Of a stretch of DNA of 64,000 nucleotides, positions 37,743 to 52,476 are shown one piece after another; the first letter of the stretch is position 1; every line of letters begins with the position of its first letter. Made by a program: the position numbers and the translations under genes. The notes beneath the pieces are model-generated. The model was not told where the DNA came from and made no database searches. It saw only the letters and a list, made by a program, of their open reading frames with translations. The DNA comes from Paludibacteraceae bacterium. GTDB lineage: Bacteria; Bacteroidota; Bacteroidia; Bacteroidales; Paludibacteraceae. The stretch covers positions 20,398 through 84,397 of the forward strand of contig JAFUWV010000009.1 in assembly GCA_017477325.1 (NCBI GenBank), read 5' to 3'.

Positions 37743-38180
37743 ATGAAACGCACCACCATAGACGATTGCCATCTCATTGATCTACGCAAAATCTCCGACC
37801 CGCGTGGTAATCTCACCCCAATTGAGGGTGGAAAAGATATTCCCTTCGATATCAAACGTGTATATTATCTTTATGATGTACCGGGAGGAGAAAGTCGTGG
37901 AGCACATGCACATAAGCAGTTATATCAACTCATTATTGCTGCGAGTGGTTCTTTCACGGTGACGCTTGATGACGGAACAAATAAGAAATCTTTCAATCTC
38001 AATCGTTCCTATTATGGTTTGCTTGTTGTGCCTGGTATATGGCGCGACTTGGACGACTTCTCGTCAGGAGCTGTCCTTTTTTGCCTGGCAAGCGAACATT
38101 ATGATGCCTCCGACTATATCCGCGATTATGATGAGTTTTTGAAGTATAAAGGAGTGAAGGCTGAGCGAATTATTGAGTGA
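37743..38180 (+). CDS. FdtA/WxcM-like sugar 3,4-ketoisomerase paralogue 3
   Basis: A 145-residue cupin with the full motif SRGAHAHK (His55, His57), SDPRGNLTPIEGG, FDIKRVYYLYDVPGGE and RSYYGLLVVPGIWRDL. It is closer to paralogue 2 than to paralogue 1. The ATG at 37743 is preferred over an in-frame TTG six bases upstream. It has its own promoter and is more GC-rich than paralogues 1 and 2, which suggests a separate arrival. It is separated from the FdtC- and FdtB-like genes by the 6-kb defence-like island. Confidence 0.85.
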   Translation: MKRTTIDDCHLIDLRKISDPRGNLTPIEGGKDIPFDIKRVYYLYDVPGGESRGAHAHKQLYQLIIAASGSFTVTLDDGTNKKSFNLNRSYYGLLVVPGIWRDLDDFSSGAVLFCLASEHYDASDYIRDYDEFLKYKGVKAERIIE

Positions 38181-38436
38181 TGAAGGTTTAATAAATGAAT
38201 TTGCATTATATACTTAAACCGACTCACCACCGACTGTGAAGCGAAATAGCCGCACCGAGAATATCCAGTGGACATTCGAAGGTGAAAGAGTGCCTCGGAT
38301 GGCACTCCGAGTGTCGGTCCCGACGAGTCCCCATTCGGAGGGTTAGAACGGCACATAGAATTTTGCAGCGCGCGAGTTTCGGAGAAACATAGAAGACCTT
38401 ATAGCGGGAGATGACCGAGAGACAAATAATTAGAAA
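38181..38436. other. structured non-coding gap before the DUF1016 gene
   Basis: No gene. Two overlapping helices at 38289-38311 (AGTGCC with GGCACT, and CTCGGA with TCCGAG) have the order of a pseudoknot. A GTCGG/CCGAC hairpin at 38313-38324 follows, and then the left 20-base direct repeat at 38403-38422. Confidence 0.4.
38403..38422 (+). repeat. left 20-base direct repeat flanking the DUF1016 gene
   Basis: AGCGGGAGATGACCGAGAGA, identical to 39686-39705, bracketing the nuclease gene. Confidence 0.85.
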
Positions 38437-39672
38437 ATGAAAGAAGAAAACGATTTATCAGAGCAGCCGCGTATAGTGAAATCTCACGACATACGTATTG
38501 ATACGGACTACGCGGAATGGATAGCCGAGTTAAAGCATCGGTACCGTTCGGCGCAAGTGAAAGCCTCTGTGCGCGTGAATGCGGAGAAGTTGCTCTTCAA
38601 TTGGGAATTGGGATGTGACTTGGTGCAAAAGAAAGCAGAAGAACGTTGGGGCACAGGAGTAGTGGAGCAAGTCAGCCTTGATCTCCAACGCGAGTTTCCG
38701 AATGCGGAAGGATTCTCTGCCAAGAACCTTTGGTTCATGAAGAAATGGTATCTGTTTTATTCATCTCCAGAGGCTCAAGAAAGACTCTACCAACTTGGTG
38801 GAGAAATAGAGACGGGAAAACTCTTACAGCCTGTTAGAGAATTACCCAACTCAAAACTCTACCAGCCTGGTAGAGAAATTCCAAATACAAAACTGCACCA
38901 GACTGGTGCAGAATTTCCTGCTCCATTTGCATTAGTCCCTTGGAGACATCATGTAGAGATTATCTCCAAATGCAAATCCGTTGATGAAGCGTTGTTCTAT
39001 ATAGGTAAGACGATAGAGCAGGGGATGAGTCGTGCGGCATTGGTAAATTGCATCAAGGTAAACTTGTACGAACATCAAGGAAAGATACTCAATAACTTTG
39101 CAGAGCACATGCCTGCTTTGCAGAGTAAGCTGGTGCAAGAGGTGCTCAAGGAGAACTATGACTTCGGCTTCGCAACCGTGAAGCATGAGATTTACGATGA
39201 GCAGGAGTTAGAAGAAGCATTGAGCAAAAGTGTAACGGATCTTTTGTTGGAACTCGGAACCGGCTTTGCGTTCATTGGAAGACAGAAGGAACTGATAGCC
39301 GGGGATACGACGCGCAAGATTGATTTACTCTTCTATCATATCCGCTTGCGCTGCTATGTGGTGTGCGAACTGAAAGCTAAAGCTTTTGAACCGGAGTTCG
39401 CCGGGAAACTGAATTTTTACGTCAATGCAGTGGATGACTTGTTGAAAGCAGAGGAAGACAATCCAACGATAGGCTTGCTTATCTGTTCGGATATGAATAA
39501 GGCAGATGTTCAATGGTCATTTCGAGGCATCAGCACACCAATGGGAGTGGCAACATATAATAATGTACGCATCAAGGACATGCTTCCGACGCAAGAGCAA
39601 CTGAAGGAACGCATGGAACTCCTGCAAAAAGAAATGCGTGAAACTAAACGATTAATGAAAGCAAATAAGTAA
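38437..39672 (+). CDS. PDDEXK nuclease family protein (DUF1016/YhcG)
   Basis: A 411-residue protein. The N-terminal DUF1016 domain (about 25-115; VRVNAEKLLFNWELGCDLV, WGTGVVEQVSLDLQREFP) is followed by a variable linker (about 117-160). The C-terminal PDDEXK domain has GDTTRKIDLLFYH and YVVCELKAK supplying the acidic and Lys residues. Family members occur beside restriction systems and in defence islands; a role in DNA cleavage or repair of foreign DNA is inferred. The linker is built from four 36-base units, each holding a 19-base palindrome. Identical 20-base direct repeats flank the gene. Confidence 0.85.
   Translation: MKEENDLSEQPRIVKSHDIRIDTDYAEWIAELKHRYRSAQVKASVRVNAEKLLFNWELGCDLVQKKAEERWGTGVVEQVSLDLQREFPNAEGFSAKNLWFMKKWYLFYSSPEAQERLYQLGGEIETGKLLQPVRELPNSKLYQPGREIPNTKLHQTGAEFPAPFALVPWRHHVEIISKCKSVDEALFYIGKTIEQGMSRAALVNCIKVNLYEHQGKILNNFAEHMPALQSKLVQEVLKENYDFGFATVKHEIYDEQELEEALSKSVTDLLLELGTGFAFIGRQKELIAGDTTRKIDLLFYHIRLRCYVVCELKAKAFEPEFAGKLNFYVNAVDDLLKAEEDNPTIGLLICSDMNKADVQWSFRGISTPMGVATYNNVRIKDMLPTQEQLKERMELLQKEMRETKRLMKANK
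38785..38911 (+). repeat. four in-frame 36-base units with covarying palindromes
   Basis: Palindromes start at 38785, 38821, 38857 and 38893, exactly 36 bases apart. The third (CTCTACCAGcCTGGTAGAG) and fourth (CTGCACCAGaCTGGTGCAG) are perfect 9-base arms with different sequence, so the arms changed together. They encode KLYQPGREIPNT-like 12-residue repeats. Confidence 0.9.
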
Positions 39673-39685
39673 TCACTGAGCGACG

Positions 39686-39705
39686 AGCGGGAGATGACCG
39701 AGAGA
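39686..39705 (+). repeat. right 20-base direct repeat flanking the DUF1016 gene
   Basis: Identical to 38403-38422; the copies are 1,283 bases apart. The rest of the gap to 39850 shows no gene. Confidence 0.85.
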
Positions 39706-39850
39706 AGACCGAGACAAAAATGCGTAAGAGGATGTGACTAAACCTGAAAAAGGTTAAGAGAGAAAATAGTATAAAACAAAAATAATGTTGATAATACATG
39801 ATATGAATATCATTTAAAAATTTACAAACTGCTAAAAAAATAATGGATTT

Positions 39851-41578
39851 ATGCAATACTACGAAAAATTTGAAACAGAAACAGGTCTTATAAGCAGATA
39901 TTCTGCTGACAAGGCTTTTTTGATATGGGCAATGGGGCTTTATCTTGATATACAGGATTTAGAATCAATGGCCGATGATAATCTTACAGACAATGGGGAT
40001 GACCACGGCATTGATTTTCTTCGATATGATGAGGATGCTGGAGTATTATATTTGGCACAAGGCTACCATACAAACAAGGTTAAGCAGAGTGCACCAGCAT
40101 CAAAAGCCGCCGACTTAAATGCCGCTTGTGCTTGGCTGATGAATGGAGAAATAGAAAGATTCAACCCTGAAATCCGCGAAAATATTATTGAAGCACGAAC
40201 CGCAATATTAAATGATGATGTTCAGAAGATTACTCTTGTCTATGCACATAACTGCGGTGAGTCTGTTGAAGTCCATCAAGAACTTGAGATGGCTAAACAA
40301 ACGCTTATCTCCTTGTTAGGCGAGAGGCAGATAGAAGTGATCTATATTGAGCTGGGTAATGAATCATTAGAAAGGATATTTCAAAATCAAGCAGCGAACA
40401 TCATTGTGACCGAGGATATTGAGTGCCCATTTCAAGTAAAATACACCGAGGAGGCAGGTATCTGGAAAGCGGCAATACTTTCTATTACAGGGCAATGGTT
40501 GCGAGAATTATACAATAGGTATGCAGGTGATCTGTTTTCCGCTAACTATCGCGGTTTTTTAGGTAATTCAAGACAGAGAATCAATAATGGCATCAAGGCA
40601 ACTGCTGAAAGAGCTCCTAAGAATTTTTGGGCTTTCAACAATGGTATTACAATACTTACTACTCATATACAACAAAAGCCCGAAAAAACTACGCTTTCAG
40701 GGATGGCAATCATCAATGGAGCACAAACAACCGGATCTATTGGTGCAATTCCGTTGTCTGTTGATTTGTCCGAGGTTAATATCCTTGCTCGCGTGATTGA
40801 ATGTTCTGATCCCGAAACTATTAATTCAATTGTAAAGTTTAATAACACTCAGAACAAGATAACTGCATGGGATTCGTTCAGCAATGATCCTATTCAGATT
40901 CAACTACAGGATGAGTTTAAACAACTCGGACATGAATATAATATTAAGCGTGGATTTAGCAACCGTGAAAGTATGCTTTCTGTAGAAGCGGCGTTGCAAC
41001 CGTTATTAGCTATCTCAGGAAAATACAAGGATGCCAATCGAAGTAAAACCTATCTATTTGAGTCAAGGTCTCTTTATACTGAAGCATTCGAACATCGCGG
41101 TGCTCGCAATTTGTTATTTGCATGCTGCTTAAACACTTGCTTGCAAGTTATCAAATCAGAAAACAAAGAATTAGTAGAATTAGGTAGTTCTGAGGTTAGT
41201 GAAACAGACAAGCAAACACGTAATGTACTTGCAGTTATTAAATTCAAATATTACATTATTAGTATTATTGCAGAGTCACTACATAAATTATTCAGTTCTC
41301 TTATCGAGACTAAAAGGATTAGTTTTACGCCAGATTATGCAAAGTCAGTTGCTTATGATTATAACACTCTTGTCAACTTGCTAAAACCGATCGTTAATCT
41401 TATGCTCCCTATTGTCGTAAAAGAACTGGGCGATGACTTCTATTCCAAGTATAATGATGCAACAACTGTGGATGCTATAGCGAGTAATGTTGAAACATCA
41501 CTTAATTCGCTTAAGGCCATTTCTTCCGAAGTCCAGACAAAGTTATTAGAAATGGCCAATATGGTTTGCAATGGTTAA
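39851..41578 (+). CDS. AIPR family protein (abortive infection phage resistance)
   Basis: A 575-residue protein of the AIPR family (Pfam AIPR, named for abortive-infection phage resistance). Hallmarks are GIDFLRYDEDAGVLYLAQGY near residue 55-75, RGFLGNSRQRINNGIKATAERAPKNFWAFNNGITIL (about 235-270) and GMAIINGAQTTGSI (about 280-293). Then come SIVKFNNTQNKITAWD and a helical C-terminal half. The N-terminal segment resembles a PDDEXK-like restriction fold in some relatives. Members occur alone or beside restriction and other defence genes. It starts the probable AIPR-MBL-TM-MBL operon. Activity against phage is inferred from the family. Confidence 0.85.
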   Translation: MQYYEKFETETGLISRYSADKAFLIWAMGLYLDIQDLESMADDNLTDNGDDHGIDFLRYDEDAGVLYLAQGYHTNKVKQSAPASKAADLNAACAWLMNGEIERFNPEIRENIIEARTAILNDDVQKITLVYAHNCGESVEVHQELEMAKQTLISLLGERQIEVIYIELGNESLERIFQNQAANIIVTEDIECPFQVKYTEEAGIWKAAILSITGQWLRELYNRYAGDLFSANYRGFLGNSRQRINNGIKATAERAPKNFWAFNNGITILTTHIQQKPEKTTLSGMAIINGAQTTGSIGAIPLSVDLSEVNILARVIECSDPETINSIVKFNNTQNKITAWDSFSNDPIQIQLQDEFKQLGHEYNIKRGFSNRESMLSVEAALQPLLAISGKYKDANRSKTYLFESRSLYTEAFEHRGARNLLFACCLNTCLQVIKSENKELVELGSSEVSETDKQTRNVLAVIKFKYYIISIIAESLHKLFSSLIETKRISFTPDYAKSVAYDYNTLVNLLKPIVNLMLPIVVKELGDDFYSKYNDATTVDAIASNVETSLNSLKAISSEVQTKLLEMANMVCNG

Positions 41579-41644
41579 TATTACTAAAGGTAGCTATAGC
41601 TATTATTGAAATGGATAATAATTATAGTTTATAATCATATTAAT

Positions 41645-42661
41645 ATGGCAAGAATTCACTTCCTAAATGTTAAAGAAGGAGATTGTTCAATCATCCAACA
41701 TGAGAATGGTCCTGTAACTATGATTGATGTAAGTAATGCATTTATACCTCAAGTGGAAGATGCAGAATCTGCTGAAGTTATAGAGAAAGCATTTGCAGTT
41801 GAAGCACTAAAGGGTAATTATAATCAAAAAGCTAATCCTACTAATCCGATAGAATATTTAAATACCATTGGCGTAACAGAAATTTTTAGGTATATCCAAA
41901 CGCATCCGGATATGGATCATATGGATGGTTTAGCTGCTCTCCGGCGAAGTTTCCAAATTTATAATTTCTGGGATACAAAGAATAATAAACAAATTGAATG
42001 GCATGCACCATTTGAAGGTGGGTATAAAAAAGAAGATTGGGATTGCTACCAGCAATTAAGAGTAAGCACTGCAAATCCCAAATCCTTATTTTTTGAAGAT
42101 GGTGCTTGTGAAAAGTACTTTGCTAAAGATGATCATGATAATTTAAAACAAGATGATTATCTTGAAATCTTATCACCAACCTCTCAACTCATAACTTCAG
42201 CAAATAATAATGGTGAATGGAATGATAGTTCCTATGTGATTTTATACCATATTCATGGGAGAAAGGTCTTGTTTTGCGGAGATGCAGGAGACCGCACAAT
42301 TGCACACTTACTGGAATTACACTCTGAAGCGATCAAAAATATAGATGTTTTAATTGCTCCTCACCACGGAAGAGATAGCGATAAAGATTTTGGTTTTTTA
42401 GATATAATGAAGCCAAAGATAACCTTGTTTGGAAACGCTGATTCTAAAGATATGGCTTACCAGCCATGGATTGACCGGAATTTGATAAAATTCACGAACA
42501 ACCAAATTGGTGATGCTGTATTGGAAGTGTCGTTAAATAAATTTGCTATATATGTATCCAATAAATCATTTGTAGATGCATTTAGGTCAAAAAATAAATT
42601 TCAAGAAACTCAACCACATGTACTACTAAATGGAATGTGGTTATTATGGAAAATACAATGA
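41645..42661 (+). CDS. ComEC/Rec2-like metallo-beta-lactamase-fold protein 1
   Basis: A 338-residue soluble MBL-fold hydrolase. FLNVKEGDCSII (6-17) matches the ComEC-type opening FLDVGQGD. The metal motif THPDMDHMDGL gives His87, Asp89, Asp91 and His92 (the HxDxDH form typical of ComEC-like domains). FCGDAGD (about 210) and PHHGRDSD (about 239) complete the site. The start at 41645 is preferred because a 13-codon extension upstream is unlike the family. The stop overlaps the next ATG. It may cleave nucleic acid or a nucleotide signal; this is inference. Confidence 0.78.
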   Translation: MARIHFLNVKEGDCSIIQHENGPVTMIDVSNAFIPQVEDAESAEVIEKAFAVEALKGNYNQKANPTNPIEYLNTIGVTEIFRYIQTHPDMDHMDGLAALRRSFQIYNFWDTKNNKQIEWHAPFEGGYKKEDWDCYQQLRVSTANPKSLFFEDGACEKYFAKDDHDNLKQDDYLEILSPTSQLITSANNNGEWNDSSYVILYHIHGRKVLFCGDAGDRTIAHLLELHSEAIKNIDVLIAPHHGRDSDKDFGFLDIMKPKITLFGNADSKDMAYQPWIDRNLIKFTNNQIGDAVLEVSLNKFAIYVSNKSFVDAFRSKNKFQETQPHVLLNGMWLLWKIQ

Positions 42662-43365
42662 AAAATAATTATTATTTATATGCTCGATTATTTCCGACAA
42701 TATTAACAGCAATCCCAATGATTGTGTTTTATGCGAATGTTATACATCCGATTGTGGAAAAGAATCTATCTGTTGTATGGGAATATCTGCCGATGTTGAC
42801 TGATATTTCGGTAAATGCTGCATTTATCTTCCTTTTAGTTATGGTAAATCGTTACTTGTCTAAGGTTATTTTTCAAAAATGTTATTTTGAAGACGAATTG
42901 AAAATGCCAACAACAGAATGGTTACTTCCAAACTCAACAATATGCGATAAATCTACACGCAATAGGATATATCAATTGATACAAAAGGATTTGAATATAG
43001 ATTTACGAAAAGACCTCAAATCGTTTCTTAATGAGAATGATAAGCGTAAACATGTTGCGCAAGTTGTAGGAATTATACGAAATGGGTTAAGAGACAATAC
43101 TATGTTACTGCAGCACAACATAGAGTACGGCTTTTTTAGGAATTTGATAGGAGGCTCAGTATTAGCTGTGTTGTTTTCGATTGGAATTATAGTAGTATCT
43201 ACCTGTGATAATGATAATGGATTGTTATGGACAGGCATTGTGATGTTAGTCTTTTATATATTACCGATAGTTTTATCTAAACGTATCATTCGGGCTCATG
43301 GGGAAAACTATGCAAGTGTGTTTTTTAAAGAATACGAGAGTTCTAAAAAATCACAAACTTTATGA
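42658..43365 (+). CDS. four-helix membrane protein between two MBL genes
   Basis: A 235-residue membrane protein, family not recognised. It has helices at about 11-30, 48-66, 163-182 and 189-206, with a charged cytoplasmic domain (about 67-160; NRIYQLIQKDLNIDLRKDLKSFLNENDKRKH). The arrangement, a pair of helices at each end around a soluble core, is reminiscent of membrane effectors in signalling-type phage defence, but no homology can be claimed. The start at 42658 overlaps the MBL1 stop as ATGA; in-frame starts at 42646 and 42637 are alternatives. It overlaps MBL2 by four bases, so all three genes are tightly coupled. Confidence 0.7.
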   Translation: MKNNYYLYARLFPTILTAIPMIVFYANVIHPIVEKNLSVVWEYLPMLTDISVNAAFIFLLVMVNRYLSKVIFQKCYFEDELKMPTTEWLLPNSTICDKSTRNRIYQLIQKDLNIDLRKDLKSFLNENDKRKHVAQVVGIIRNGLRDNTMLLQHNIEYGFFRNLIGGSVLAVLFSIGIIVVSTCDNDNGLLWTGIVMLVFYILPIVLSKRIIRAHGENYASVFFKEYESSKKSQTL

Positions 43366-44384
43366 TTACAAAATACGAAATAGATTTTTTGAGTGTCAAA
43401 GATGCAGATGCTATCTTAATTCATTTCGTTGATGATGTGTATGGAGAGAGGATTATAGCTATTGACGCTGGCAGATATAGTGACGGTGATATCGTGTCTT
43501 CTTTTGTTGAGAAGTATTATAAACGCAATTATATTGATATCGCAGTATGTACACACTGCGACGATGATCATTATGGTGGATTTGTAAAAATAATAGAAGA
43601 GCAAATTAAATATCCAGTAACAGGATTCAAAATTAACTCTCTATGGGTAAATGATCCAGGTGCATTTGTTGAGGCTTCTGATGTGAAATATTACCGAAGT
43701 AACGCAAATGTTAAAATAGAAGCACGTTCCGTATACACTTTGTATGACGGAAAAAATTTGTTGGAGTTGGCTAAACAAGCAAAAGTGCCGATGAGAGATG
43801 TGTTCTCTTTTGGTGGCGCACCTTGGAGCGTATACAATGGGGCTGTAGAAATACTAGGTCCGACTCTGTCTTATTATAAAACGTTAGTTCCTAATTTACG
43901 TCATGCCTTAGAGCCATATAAATCTGATGAAGATATTTCCGATGACACAAGTATGGAATATGGTAATTGTATAAGTCCCAAATTAGATGCTGTAGGAGAC
44001 GATACTTCTACGCATAATCAATCAAGTGCGATAATTATGTTCAGTCCTGGAGATGGTAATAAGTTTATCTTTATGGGGGATGCTGGGCGTGATGCATTTA
44101 ATAATATGTTAGGAAGTGATAGAAATAAAATGCAGAATGCTCTTGTGTTAAAGGTTCCGCATCACGGAAGTAAGTATAATATGGATAGCACAATGATTAA
44201 CTTTATCAATCCAACAATTGCGGTAGTTTCTGCAGAGAGTACAGAAAAGTACTTTAGCCCACTTGTGAAAAATGCTTTAAAGCGCAAAGGGGTTTTTGTA
44301 TACTCAACAATGAATAGTGGGCATCTTTGGTATAATCATGGCTTTGAAGAGCGCGTGGGGTATACTTCAGCCGATATTATGTAA
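43362..44384 (+). CDS. ComEC/Rec2-like metallo-beta-lactamase-fold protein 2
   Basis: A 340-residue soluble MBL-fold protein. EIDFLSVKDADAIL (6-19) is the ComEC-type opening, THCDDDHYGG gives His65, Asp67, Asp69 and His70 (HxDxDH again), and FMGDAGRD and VPHHGSKYNMD follow. NSGHLWYNHGFEERVG is at the end. It shares the plan of MBL protein 1 but has a different middle (about 75-190), so the two are diverged paralogues. Its start overlaps the membrane-protein stop. The pairing of two such enzymes around one membrane protein is unusual. Confidence 0.78.
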   Translation: MITKYEIDFLSVKDADAILIHFVDDVYGERIIAIDAGRYSDGDIVSSFVEKYYKRNYIDIAVCTHCDDDHYGGFVKIIEEQIKYPVTGFKINSLWVNDPGAFVEASDVKYYRSNANVKIEARSVYTLYDGKNLLELAKQAKVPMRDVFSFGGAPWSVYNGAVEILGPTLSYYKTLVPNLRHALEPYKSDEDISDDTSMEYGNCISPKLDAVGDDTSTHNQSSAIIMFSPGDGNKFIFMGDAGRDAFNNMLGSDRNKMQNALVLKVPHHGSKYNMDSTMINFINPTIAVVSAESTEKYFSPLVKNALKRKGVFVYSTMNSGHLWYNHGFEERVGYTSADIM

Positions 44385-44635
44385 GAGCCCATTTGAATAA
44401 GTTGATTAAAATGTTAATAATATCAAATAACTTCGTATCTATCCCATATCTCTCTCGTAGATGAGTAGTAAAAAGAAAAATTTTACACTATACACCAGAC
44501 ACCAAAACAATAAAACAAATGAAACTCCCTTCCTATTTTGAATTAGATAGATACGGTCTACACGTGCGATGAGTGTGTAAAGAAGGGGCAAAAACGAAAT
44601 GGTAAATTGTAAATGATTAAATAGTAAATAGAAAC
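44385..44635. other. AT-rich gap closing the defence-like island
   Basis: No gene is seen. A 10-base inverted repeat, CGTATCTATC (44434-44443) and GATAGATACG (44546-44555), brackets about 100 bases. Short AAATAGTAAATAG words precede the acetyltransferase start. Confidence 0.4.
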
Positions 44636-45091
44636 ATGATACATCCATTATCCGATTGTCAGGCTCATGTGCCTGAATCAACCAACATATGGCAATTTTG
44701 CGTGGTGCTTCCAGAAGCAAAGATTGGTGAGAACTGCAATATCTGTTCTCATTGCTTCATTGAGAATGGTGCTGTCATTGGCAATAACGTTACCATCAAG
44801 AATGGCGTGCAGATTTGGGATGGCATCGTCATTGAAGACAACGTACAAGTAGGTGCCAACGTGACATTTACCAACGACCGCTATCCGCGAGCAAAAAATA
44901 AAGATTGGATATTAGAAAAGACAATTGTAAAACATGGTGCTAGTATCGGTGCCGGCAGCTCGATAGTTTGTGGCATCACGATAGGCGAGAACGCCATGAT
45001 AGGCATGGGTAGTGTGGTCACACATGACGTTCCTGCTGGTGAGTTATGGTTGGGTAATCCTGCAAAGTTTATAAAAAAAGTATACTTTTGA
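44636..45091 (+). CDS. hexapeptide-repeat sugar N-acetyltransferase (FdtC/QdtC/WbbJ-like)
   Basis: A 151-residue left-handed beta-helix acetyltransferase. Hexapeptide repeats run from about 20 to 135 ([28 protein letters not shown] and later [26 protein letters not shown]). The segment [16 protein letters not shown] is typical of dTDP-3-amino-sugar N-acetyltransferases. It probably acetylates the 3-amino group made by the FdtB-like aminotransferase at 46009. It ends [13 protein letters not shown], the normal family end. Confidence 0.8.
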
Positions 45092-48045: not shown

Positions 48046-48360
48046 ATGGCCGAAATAGAATACGCATGTGAGATTAGGGCGATACATGGAAAACTCAGAA
48101 AGGGTGATAACTTCTATTGTCGCACAATGGTGAACGGAAAGAACTACATAGTGGCGCAACGTTCACAGAAAAACCATATACCCACCCGGAAGCAAAGGCA
48201 GGCACAACTGAACCTGAAAAGGCTGAGACAGCGTGTGTCGGATGAGCTGCGTGAGAGACGGCAGATGTGGAACGAACGGTGGCAAACCGACCCGGAAGGA
48301 CTGAGATACAAGCGGCTGTGCGACTATGTGGCACATAGCGTTCGGCATCTTAATGCATAA
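48046..48360 (+). CDS. ~100-residue protein of the replication/lysis module, member 1
   Basis: A 104-residue very basic protein, no named family. It shares a plan with the genes at 50909, 51619 and 52156: an N-terminal strand region (IHGKLRKGDNFYCRTMVNGKNYIV), a PT..KQ.QAQ hinge, a long Arg/Gln-rich helix, then an aromatic end (RYKRLCDYVAHSV). This suggests a compact nucleic-acid-binding or phage-type structural protein; function is not known. It follows repeats directly. Confidence 0.6.
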   Translation: MAEIEYACEIRAIHGKLRKGDNFYCRTMVNGKNYIVAQRSQKNHIPTRKQRQAQLNLKRLRQRVSDELRERRQMWNERWQTDPEGLRYKRLCDYVAHSVRHLNA

Positions 48361-50908: not shown

Positions 50909-51211
50909 ATGAAAATCTCATTTTTGTATCCTGTCAGAGCTATTAGAGGCTCTGTGTCGAAAGGTAGCGGAGTGTATTTCCGCACAATGCGTGACGGCAG
51001 CATAGTGGTGTGCCGCCGGCCGGTAAGAAAGTGCATGGTCAGCGAGCGGCAGCATGTTCAGCAAGACCGGTTCCGCCAGGCAAGCGAGTTCGCAGTGCGC
51101 ATAATGCGTGACCCGCTGCTCCGTCAGTTTTTTCAAAGCGAGTTCGCGCGCGACAGCGAAGGCTGCCATACCATGCGCGGCTATCTGTTTCGCAGATTCT
51201 ATAAAAGATAA
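50909..51211 (+). CDS. ~100-residue protein of the replication/lysis module, member 2
   Basis: A 100-residue strongly basic protein: IRGSVSKGSGVYFRTMRDGSIVVCRRP, a helix with QHVQQDRFRQASEFAVRIMRDPLLRQFF, and the aromatic end HTMRGYLFRRFYK. It has the same plan as the genes at 48046, 51619 and 52156, but with low identity, so it is a diverged paralogue. The ending GYLFRRFYK is like NYIFAQVF and NYAFSVIY in the others. Function is unknown. Confidence 0.6.
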   Translation: MKISFLYPVRAIRGSVSKGSGVYFRTMRDGSIVVCRRPVRKCMVSERQHVQQDRFRQASEFAVRIMRDPLLRQFFQSEFARDSEGCHTMRGYLFRRFYKR

Positions 51212-51618: not shown

Positions 51619-51930
51619 ATGGCAGTTATTAATCCTTCAACACCGTTCGACAGTCTGAAGCGCAAGTTCTCAAAGTCGGATCAGATCTATTTCAAGAATC
51701 GCAGTGCGGACAACGCCACCATAGGCGTACGTATGAAGCATCCGTCAACAAGCAACAGCACTTTGCAACAGGCTTACAGAACGGCTTTCGCAGCGGCTAC
51801 GGCACAAGTGAGAACCATCATGGCTGATGCCGAACAACGCGCTACCTATGCACAACAGTTCCGTAATCAAAAAAAGTACATGTATCTCCGTAACTACATC
51901 TTTGCGCAGGTGTTTGTCAAACCGGAGTAA
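51619..51930 (+). CDS. ~100-residue protein of the replication/lysis module, member 3
   Basis: A 103-residue basic protein (PFDSLKRKFSKSDQIYFKNRSADNATIGVRMKHPS, QQAYRTAFAAATAQVRTIMADAEQRATYAQQF, KYMYLRNYIFAQVFVKPE). Its layout equals members 1, 2 and 4; the IMADAEQRATYAQQF helix and NYIFAQVF end are the clearest version of the shared pattern. It is preceded by the promoter at 51476 and a leader of about 130 bases. Function is unknown. Confidence 0.6.
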   Translation: MAVINPSTPFDSLKRKFSKSDQIYFKNRSADNATIGVRMKHPSTSNSTLQQAYRTAFAAATAQVRTIMADAEQRATYAQQFRNQKKYMYLRNYIFAQVFVKPE

Positions 51931-52155: not shown

Positions 52156-52476
52156 ATGAAAGTAGTACCTAATGAAATGTTTTCCGAACTTCACGGAAAA
52201 ATGTGCAAACGCAAAACAAGCCCCATATTGGGCTTCAACTCAAAACTGGATGTGCAATATGGCTATCATATCCACAGAGTAAACCCGCGCAACGCTGACC
52301 CGAGCGAGCAGCAAGTGGCACGCAGGCAAAAGTTTGCCGCCACAGTAGCCGCTATCAAGCAGAAGAAAGCGAACCCTACGGAGTGGGAGGCGATAAAAGA
52401 GGGCTTCAAGAATCAGAGCAAGTACAAACTGCTTTGGAACTATGCGTTCTCGGTTATCTATCCGACGATAAGTTAA
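52156..52476 (+). CDS. ~100-residue protein of the replication/lysis module, member 4
   Basis: A 106-residue basic protein: LHGKMCKRKTSPILGFNSKLDVQYGYHIHRVNPRNADPSEQQVARRQKF, AATVAAIKQKKANPTEWEAIKEGF and KYKLLWNYAFSVIYPTIS. The DPSEQQVARRQKF hinge and the aromatic end match the plan of members 1-3. It has a leader of repeats. Four such genes in 4.5 kb suggest related subunits or decoys; no function is known. Confidence 0.6.
   Translation: MKVVPNEMFSELHGKMCKRKTSPILGFNSKLDVQYGYHIHRVNPRNADPSEQQVARRQKFAATVAAIKQKKANPTEWEAIKEGFKNQSKYKLLWNYAFSVIYPTIS

Follow-up and report, generated by a model that had tools for sequence, protein, structure and literature searches.

A three-gene operon in a Paludibacteraceae bacterium encodes two ComEC-like metallo-beta-lactamase (MBL) fold enzymes on either side of a small membrane protein, here called TM. 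The operon lies in a stretch of 64,000 nucleotides (contig JAFUWV010000009.1 of GCA_017477325.1, positions 20,398 to 84,397), which is referred to in its entirety as the window. With moderate confidence, MBL1-TM-MBL2 is read here as a self-contained, probably abortive anti-phage module and a minimal relative of the 6A-MBL operons, in which TM would be the effector and the MBLs the trigger. An earlier note on this DNA had proposed a candidate defence system made of the trio and an AIPR gene, beside a DUF1016 nuclease. The gene set was taken from a listing of open reading frames together with a reading of the raw sequence, and all five genes lie on the + strand. The three of the operon are as follows (window coordinates).

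41645 to 42661, + strand: MBL1, a 338-amino-acid ComEC-like MBL fold enzyme with intact metal ligands (ATG start; PADLOC PDC-M48B, 110 bits)
42658 to 43365, + strand: TM, a 235-amino-acid membrane protein with four hydrophobic segments, the probable effector (ATG start at 42658; 46 relatives)
43362 to 44384, + strand: MBL2, a 340-amino-acid ComEC-like enzyme with the MBL fold and intact metal ligands, from a second lineage (PADLOC PDC-M48B, 117 bits, whole length)

The MBL1/TM and TM/MBL2 joints are four-base ATGA overlaps, and a gap of 66 bases separates AIPR from MBL1, as the earlier note had described. The MBL1 frame is open from a TTG at 41606 as well, and two in-frame starts (ATG at 42646, GTG at 42637) lie upstream of that of TM.

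The conserved unit is the MBL-TM pair, not the four-gene set. Across 84,980 species genomes, 46 TM loci were found, and in 45 of them an MBL gene shares the TM operon, defined by the same strand and gaps under 250 bases. At the sole exception (L054), an MBL - E2-E1-JAB operon lies about 3 kb off on the other strand. The proposal of a defence-type locus that combines ComEC-like MBLs with one membrane protein and is conserved elsewhere is upheld by this linkage. The loci span Bacteroidota, Pseudomonadota, candidate phyla, and others, and TM-MBL loci are also found on plasmids typed as conjugative. Within the phylum of the window TM is rare: five of 395 genomes match at E 0.001, its own included, and four of these matches are real, the fifth (G029) being a chance match within an unrelated long gene.

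Outside the 46-locus scan, a Runella plasmid (L006:6257-11535) carries in a row an MBL, an E2-like protein, a TM (37% identical to that of the window), an MBL1-type enzyme (43%), a short M48A-like piece, and a third MBL, an E2-only form of the operon. On a Staphylococcus epidermidis plasmid, likewise outside the scan, a distant relative of TM and an MBL are encoded convergently. TM and an MBL2-type MBL occur together on two viral contigs (L185 and L186), in the former among genes that appear by eye to encode virion proteins and in the opposite reading direction. On another viral contig (L058:1953-3436), a 157-amino-acid membrane-type protein adjoins an MBL1 relative (38%) between genes that look, by eye, UmuC-type and tail-type.

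Both enzymes are ComEC-like with an HxDxDH site, as the earlier note stated. The metal motifs are HPDMDH from residue 87, GD from 212, and HHG from 240 in MBL1, and HCDDDH from residue 65, GD from 239, and HHG from 267 in MBL2. When MBL1 is aligned with 16 relatives, H87, D91, H92, D213, H240, and H241 are invariant and the second ligand of HxDxDH varies between D and H. Pfam Lactamase_B recognizes the pair weakly, MBL2 at 24.2 bits (just over the cut-off of 22.7) and MBL1 under it. On an MBL tree of 55 rows, which were picked for nearness to TM genes and are silent on the frequency of TM-less MBLs, MBL1 clusters at 100/100 support with ten MBLs from other TM loci, while MBL2, on a long branch, groups with 17 other MBLs (98/97). 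By this tree, MBL1 and MBL2 represent two different lineages. Across the loci sampled, the two lineages mostly keep separate TMs; the window places both around one. MBL1 is 41 to 44% identical to nine close TM-paired relatives.

The small membrane protein paired with a window-type MBL is not always of the same kind. In the window's order, 13 of 393 genomes, its own among them, have an MBL1 relative, and several of these matches are weak. The six best other matches were fetched with their flanks; one pairs with TM (L074), four pair with M48A, the small membrane protein of the PADLOC candidate PDC-M48 (L075, L076, L077, and L079), and the neighbour in the sixth (L078) is a 199-amino-acid protein. 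PADLOC names M48A in L075 and L079, and those in L076 and L077 were assigned by alignment with these two. MBL2 matches 44 plasmid records, three of which were opened: the neighbour is a TM relative in Rhodococcus, an M48A relative in Citrobacter, and a different, 207-amino-acid protein in Vibrio.

The earlier note placed paired helices at both ends of the middle protein, and TM does have four hydrophobic segments in two hairpins (about residues 15-25, 49-59, 166-181, and 193-206). Its ends are positively charged. The centre, about 105 residues long and also charged, ends in LxQHNIEYGxxRNxxGG, a motif that is invariant or nearly so in 44 aligned TM sequences, the window's included. By the positive-inside rule, both the ends and the centre would be cytoplasmic. 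The family carries no name in the libraries searched (Pfam, PADLOC, NCBIfam, and PDB): the best Pfam match, at E 0.054, is not significant, PADLOC gives none at E 1 and NCBIfam none at 0.1, and the best solved structure in PDB, searched with the TM profile, stays at a likewise non-significant E 0.43. Two candidate identities were rejected. As a CBASS S-4TM protein, neither the window TM nor six relatives gave a significant Pfam match, and kinship with PDC-M48A received an hhalign probability of 0.2%. On the TM tree, the MBL1-TM set, several E1/E2-linked TMs, and the window protein form one group (support 100/99), and the E1/E2-linked TMs as a whole occupy more than one place. Asked whether TM is a chimera, the sequence gives a divided answer, with the first third nearer the MBL1-TM group (50% vs 38%) and the remainder even or slightly opposite.

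Operons that hold TM connect the window to 6A-MBL, which NCBIfam recognizes by an MBL (NF058524, cut-off 220 bits) and an E2-E1-JAB protein (NF058523, 320 bits). On an Emticicia plasmid, in an MBL - E2-E1-JAB - TM operon, both enzymes exceed these cut-offs ('6A-MBL enzyme' and '6A-MBL cap2_3'). Searched by blastp with the Emticicia protein, E2-E1-JAB is present in 13 of the 46 TM operons; eight of these proteins were tested and five pass (L013, L035, L047, L053, and L055). TM lies directly after E2-E1-JAB in 10 of the 46 loci. A sister branch of E1/E2-linked MBL-TM operons comprises L023, L029, L033, L021, and the Runella plasmid, and PADLOC detects E1 and JAB parts in the proteins of the first three. 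No paper naming '6A-MBL' or 'PDC-M48' was found among the open-licence papers searched. A table row gives operon type 6a as usually of two genes, and the available part of that paper mentions no four-helix partner for it (Iyer, Burroughs and Aravind, 2006; PMC1779556). The MBL-TM operon of the Tenacibaculum locus L027 is not described in the available part of the genome's paper (PMC10013915).

When 395 genomes of the phylum were searched with the 6A E2-E1-JAB family, six passed the cut-off, and in all six a patatin gene is directly next. Pfam confirms patatin in L127, L128, L129, L130, L132, and L055 (the L055 gene being that of L131). Because the six patatin loci stop within that gene or just past it, a TM further on could escape notice; L055 has both, with TM behind patatin. 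Patatin is also present in a 6A-type operon of a Fibrella plasmid. In CBASS, the cyclic-oligonucleotide-based anti-phage signalling system, the effector can be a patatin phospholipase or a membrane protein. Because patatin fills the place of TM in other 6A-MBL operons, TM is very probably a membrane-attacking effector, which is the most economical reading.

A second link is the C-terminus of the MBLs. A C-terminal glycine ends 11 of 21 MBLs whose gene is followed by one for E2 or E2-E1-JAB vs 3 of 43 others, the window's two included (Fisher p = 1e-4), a count that ignores shared descent and becomes 11/22 when the left-out L054 is added. L021, whose two MBL pieces are one broken gene, is excluded from this count and from that of two-MBL operons. 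MBLs that precede E1/E2 genes mostly have a flexible-looking tail, and those of them on the MBL tree, 13 in number, fall into two separate groups. In type II CBASS, the glycine-ended C-terminus of the CD-NTase is the ligation substrate. By analogy, the glycine tail of the MBL may be the ligation substrate of the E1/E2 module. The window MBLs end in IQ and IM and have no glycine tail, so they would not be expected to be ligated. Their operon holds no E1 or E2 gene, and no E2-E1-JAB over the 6A-MBL cut-off was found in the rest of the genome, which is 71% complete.

The surroundings of TM loci are suggestive of defence-gene enrichment. In 117 neighbours, chosen at random from 168 eligible proteins (no more than the four closest at each locus, core genes excluded), 65 PADLOC models were matched vs 7 in 117 control proteins; these are models and not proteins, and names are given for 25 of the 65 among the matches listed. 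The controls came from 20 regions at one fixed position in genomes of the phylum chosen for a long first contig, and their matches are generic by name. The enrichment near known defence genes that the earlier note had proposed to look for is suggested by this tally of models.

Taken together, these observations suggest how such a module could work. The MBL enzymes may be the sensing or triggering part, and TM, once triggered, would damage or depolarize the inner membrane through its four segments. The family layout would be CBASS-like, with an MBL for the CD-NTase and an exchangeable membrane-attacking effector, TM or patatin. An optional E2 or E2-E1-JAB module would couple the MBL, through its C-terminal tail, to a target. 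The window would then hold the form without the E2/E1/JAB module, in which two MBL lineages share one TM. A bolder version, offered tentatively, is that MBL-effector operons are a whole immune class mirroring CBASS part by part, with minimal, E2-only (the Runella plasmid), and E2-E1-JAB forms, exchangeable killers (4-TM or patatin), and glycine-tail ligation of the MBL. The window would be its two-enzyme minimal form, each MBL gating the shared TM.

Besides the counting of models and a glycine count uncorrected for shared descent, several points weigh against the favoured reading. The exact order MBL1-TM-MBL2 occurs in none of the 46 loci. Two real MBLs share the operon in five of them (L013, L035, L047, L048, and L052). 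MBL1 and MBL2 types are also found without TM, next to M48A or the short Vibrio gene, and 50,697 phage records gave no TM match. On the 6A-MBL side, the E2-E1-JAB proteins of L023, L029, and L033 fail the cut-off (153-174 bits vs 320), and two MBLs of the sister branch, at 44 and 52 bits, fall under 220. The next loci under the cut-off have patatin on the opposite strand (L133 and L135) or none (L134), and two 6A-type operons of Hymenobacter plasmids have neither patatin nor TM. Behind one of these (L157:7998-9041), a DUF2235 protein is encoded on the other strand.

The strongest competitor, although somewhat doubtful, exchanges the roles of the proteins. The MBLs would be ComEC-like nucleases held at the membrane by TM, where entering phage DNA would be cut, which makes the MBL the killer and TM a mere anchor. 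ComEC MBL domains are the top solved-structure matches of both MBL1 and MBL2, and a membrane part combined with an MBL part looks like ComEC split in two. In LmuA and Avs1a, the MBL is an effector part. Hidden Markov model (HMM) similarity of the window MBLs to LmuA and Avs1a, and their resemblance to RTasMBL, point the same way. Against this, patatin, which is hardly an anchor, replaces TM in other 6A-MBL operons, and the TM profile has no ComEC match among solved structures. The MBL1 profile is also similar to the teichoic-acid phosphorylcholine esterase, so the fold alone is no proof of a nuclease.

That same esterase likeness is what speaks for a role outside defence, in which the membrane protein and enzyme would serve lipid, cell-wall, or DNA-uptake work. 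This is unlikely given the rarity of TM in the phylum, its location on plasmids and viral contigs, and the operons that it shares with named anti-phage 6A-MBL proteins.

The favoured reading of MBL1-TM-MBL2 as a self-contained module leaves out the genes just upstream, which complete the locus.

38154 to 44635, no strand: stretch with the five genes that a same-genus relative lacks (blastn vs L085), flanked by FdtA and an acetyltransferase
38403 to 38422, + strand: 20-bp direct repeat to the left of DUF1016, exact copy
38437 to 39672, + strand: DUF1016 (YhcG-type PDDEXK) protein (Pfam DUF1016_N/YhcG_C well over cut-off; PADLOC PDC-S02)
39686 to 39705, + strand: 20-bp direct repeat to the right of DUF1016, exact copy
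39851 to 41578, + strand: AIPR/AbiU-like protein (Pfam AIPR 104.5 bits; PADLOC AbiU E 2.4e-29)

The start at 38437 belongs to DUF1016 and not, as first given, to AIPR; the gene content of the stretch was described correctly. AIPR relatives occur in 20 of 200 genomes of the family, its own included, with 21 such loci in other genomes (1.5 kb of flank on each side for most, more for three). AIPR and MBL1 share a strand and lie 66 bases apart, yet it is highly improbable that all four genes form one system in which AIPR is the nuclease partner, as the earlier note proposed. Neither an MBL nor a TM gene adjoins any of the 21 relatives. The nearest of these in sequence (64% full-length identity, on the 15.5-kb contig L122, same family) stands among other genes without them. 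AIPR is absent from all 46 TM operons, and the lone AIPR among those loci (L034) is separated from the TM-MBL pair by about 5 kb. AIPR and DUF1016 are probably separate neighbouring defence genes.

Inside a sugar biosynthesis cluster, all five genes are inserted between FdtA and the acetyltransferase (37743-45082). In the same-genus locus L085, glycosyltransferase, FdtA, and acetyltransferase follow in the same order and the whole cassette is absent; its matches to window positions 37743-38153 and 44636-45082 sit 2 bases apart, where the window has 6,482 bases between them. The direct repeat around DUF1016 has a 16-bp core, of which a third exact copy lies on contig C5 of the same genome, where the 1.5 kb to either side hold no DUF1016 gene. 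A DUF1016 relative in another genome of the genus (L125:14600-15886, 83% identical) lies 7.7 kb behind an FdtA gene there. By eye, the DUF1016 protein contains several imperfect repeats of about 15 residues mid-protein (38788-38920). Four short proteins (100-106 amino acids each) encoded downstream of the sugar cluster look alike by eye (48046-48360, 50909-51211, 51619-51930, and 52156-52476).

Several named systems share parts with the window module. Lamassu LmuA, Avs1a, and DRT RTasMBL have the same kind of MBL fold, with weak to moderate HMM similarity to the window MBLs, yet the five genes include no SMC, STAND, or reverse transcriptase partner. MBL2 matches LmuA at 112.6 bits, and no LmuB is among the matches listed for the five genes. 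The cut-off of Avs1a in AVAST type 1 (420 bits) is far from reached by MBL1 (21.8) or MBL2 (53.4), and that for full-length ComEC/Rec2 (190 bits) compares with 18.8 and 42.2 bits over the MBL part only.

CBASS types I and II are alike in layout, having an enzyme, an exchangeable membrane-attacking effector, an optional E2/E1/JAB module, and a glycine tail. CapP-like peptidases occur beside CBASS, as they do near TM-MBL operons, where M78 peptidases of this kind were found in 7 of 52 loci compared (L024, L029, L035, L036, L037, L039, and L047); Pfam confirms the family in one case and PADLOC capP in three. The difference lies in the enzyme: an MBL stands in place of the nucleotide cyclase, and none of the five genes has a CD-NTase match in Pfam or PADLOC. 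This opens a direct test of an MBL in the place of the CBASS nucleotide cyclase, and of the glycine-ended tail as an E2-E1 substrate.

Both window MBLs match M48B models of PDC-M48 (M48A plus the M48B MBL), at the 110 and 117 bits listed above for a model without a curated cut-off, the TM-linked MBL of L026 matches M48B at E 5e-103, and same-order MBL1 relatives pair with M48A. The window TM, however, neither matches M48A nor shows profile kinship with it. With 6A-MBL the module has in common a ComEC-like MBL and the TM family. It differs in that its MBLs score far under the NF058524 cut-off (MBL1 23.7 and MBL2 42.8 vs 220 bits), and in having two MBLs, no E2-E1-JAB (NF058523), and no glycine tail. 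Kinship was judged by a rule set in this analysis rather than a published one, a TM shared with 6A-MBL operons, and such sharing was found. The opinion that no named system has this gene set holds for the unnamed TM and the exact order, and fails where the MBLs match a named candidate and TM sits in 6A-MBL operons. 6A-MBL, named yet undescribed in the papers searched, gains an apparent effector slot, and a membrane protein family absent from all searched libraries is added. Judged by its sequence, the window module is neither 6A-MBL nor PDC-M48 as defined, and it probably works like them.

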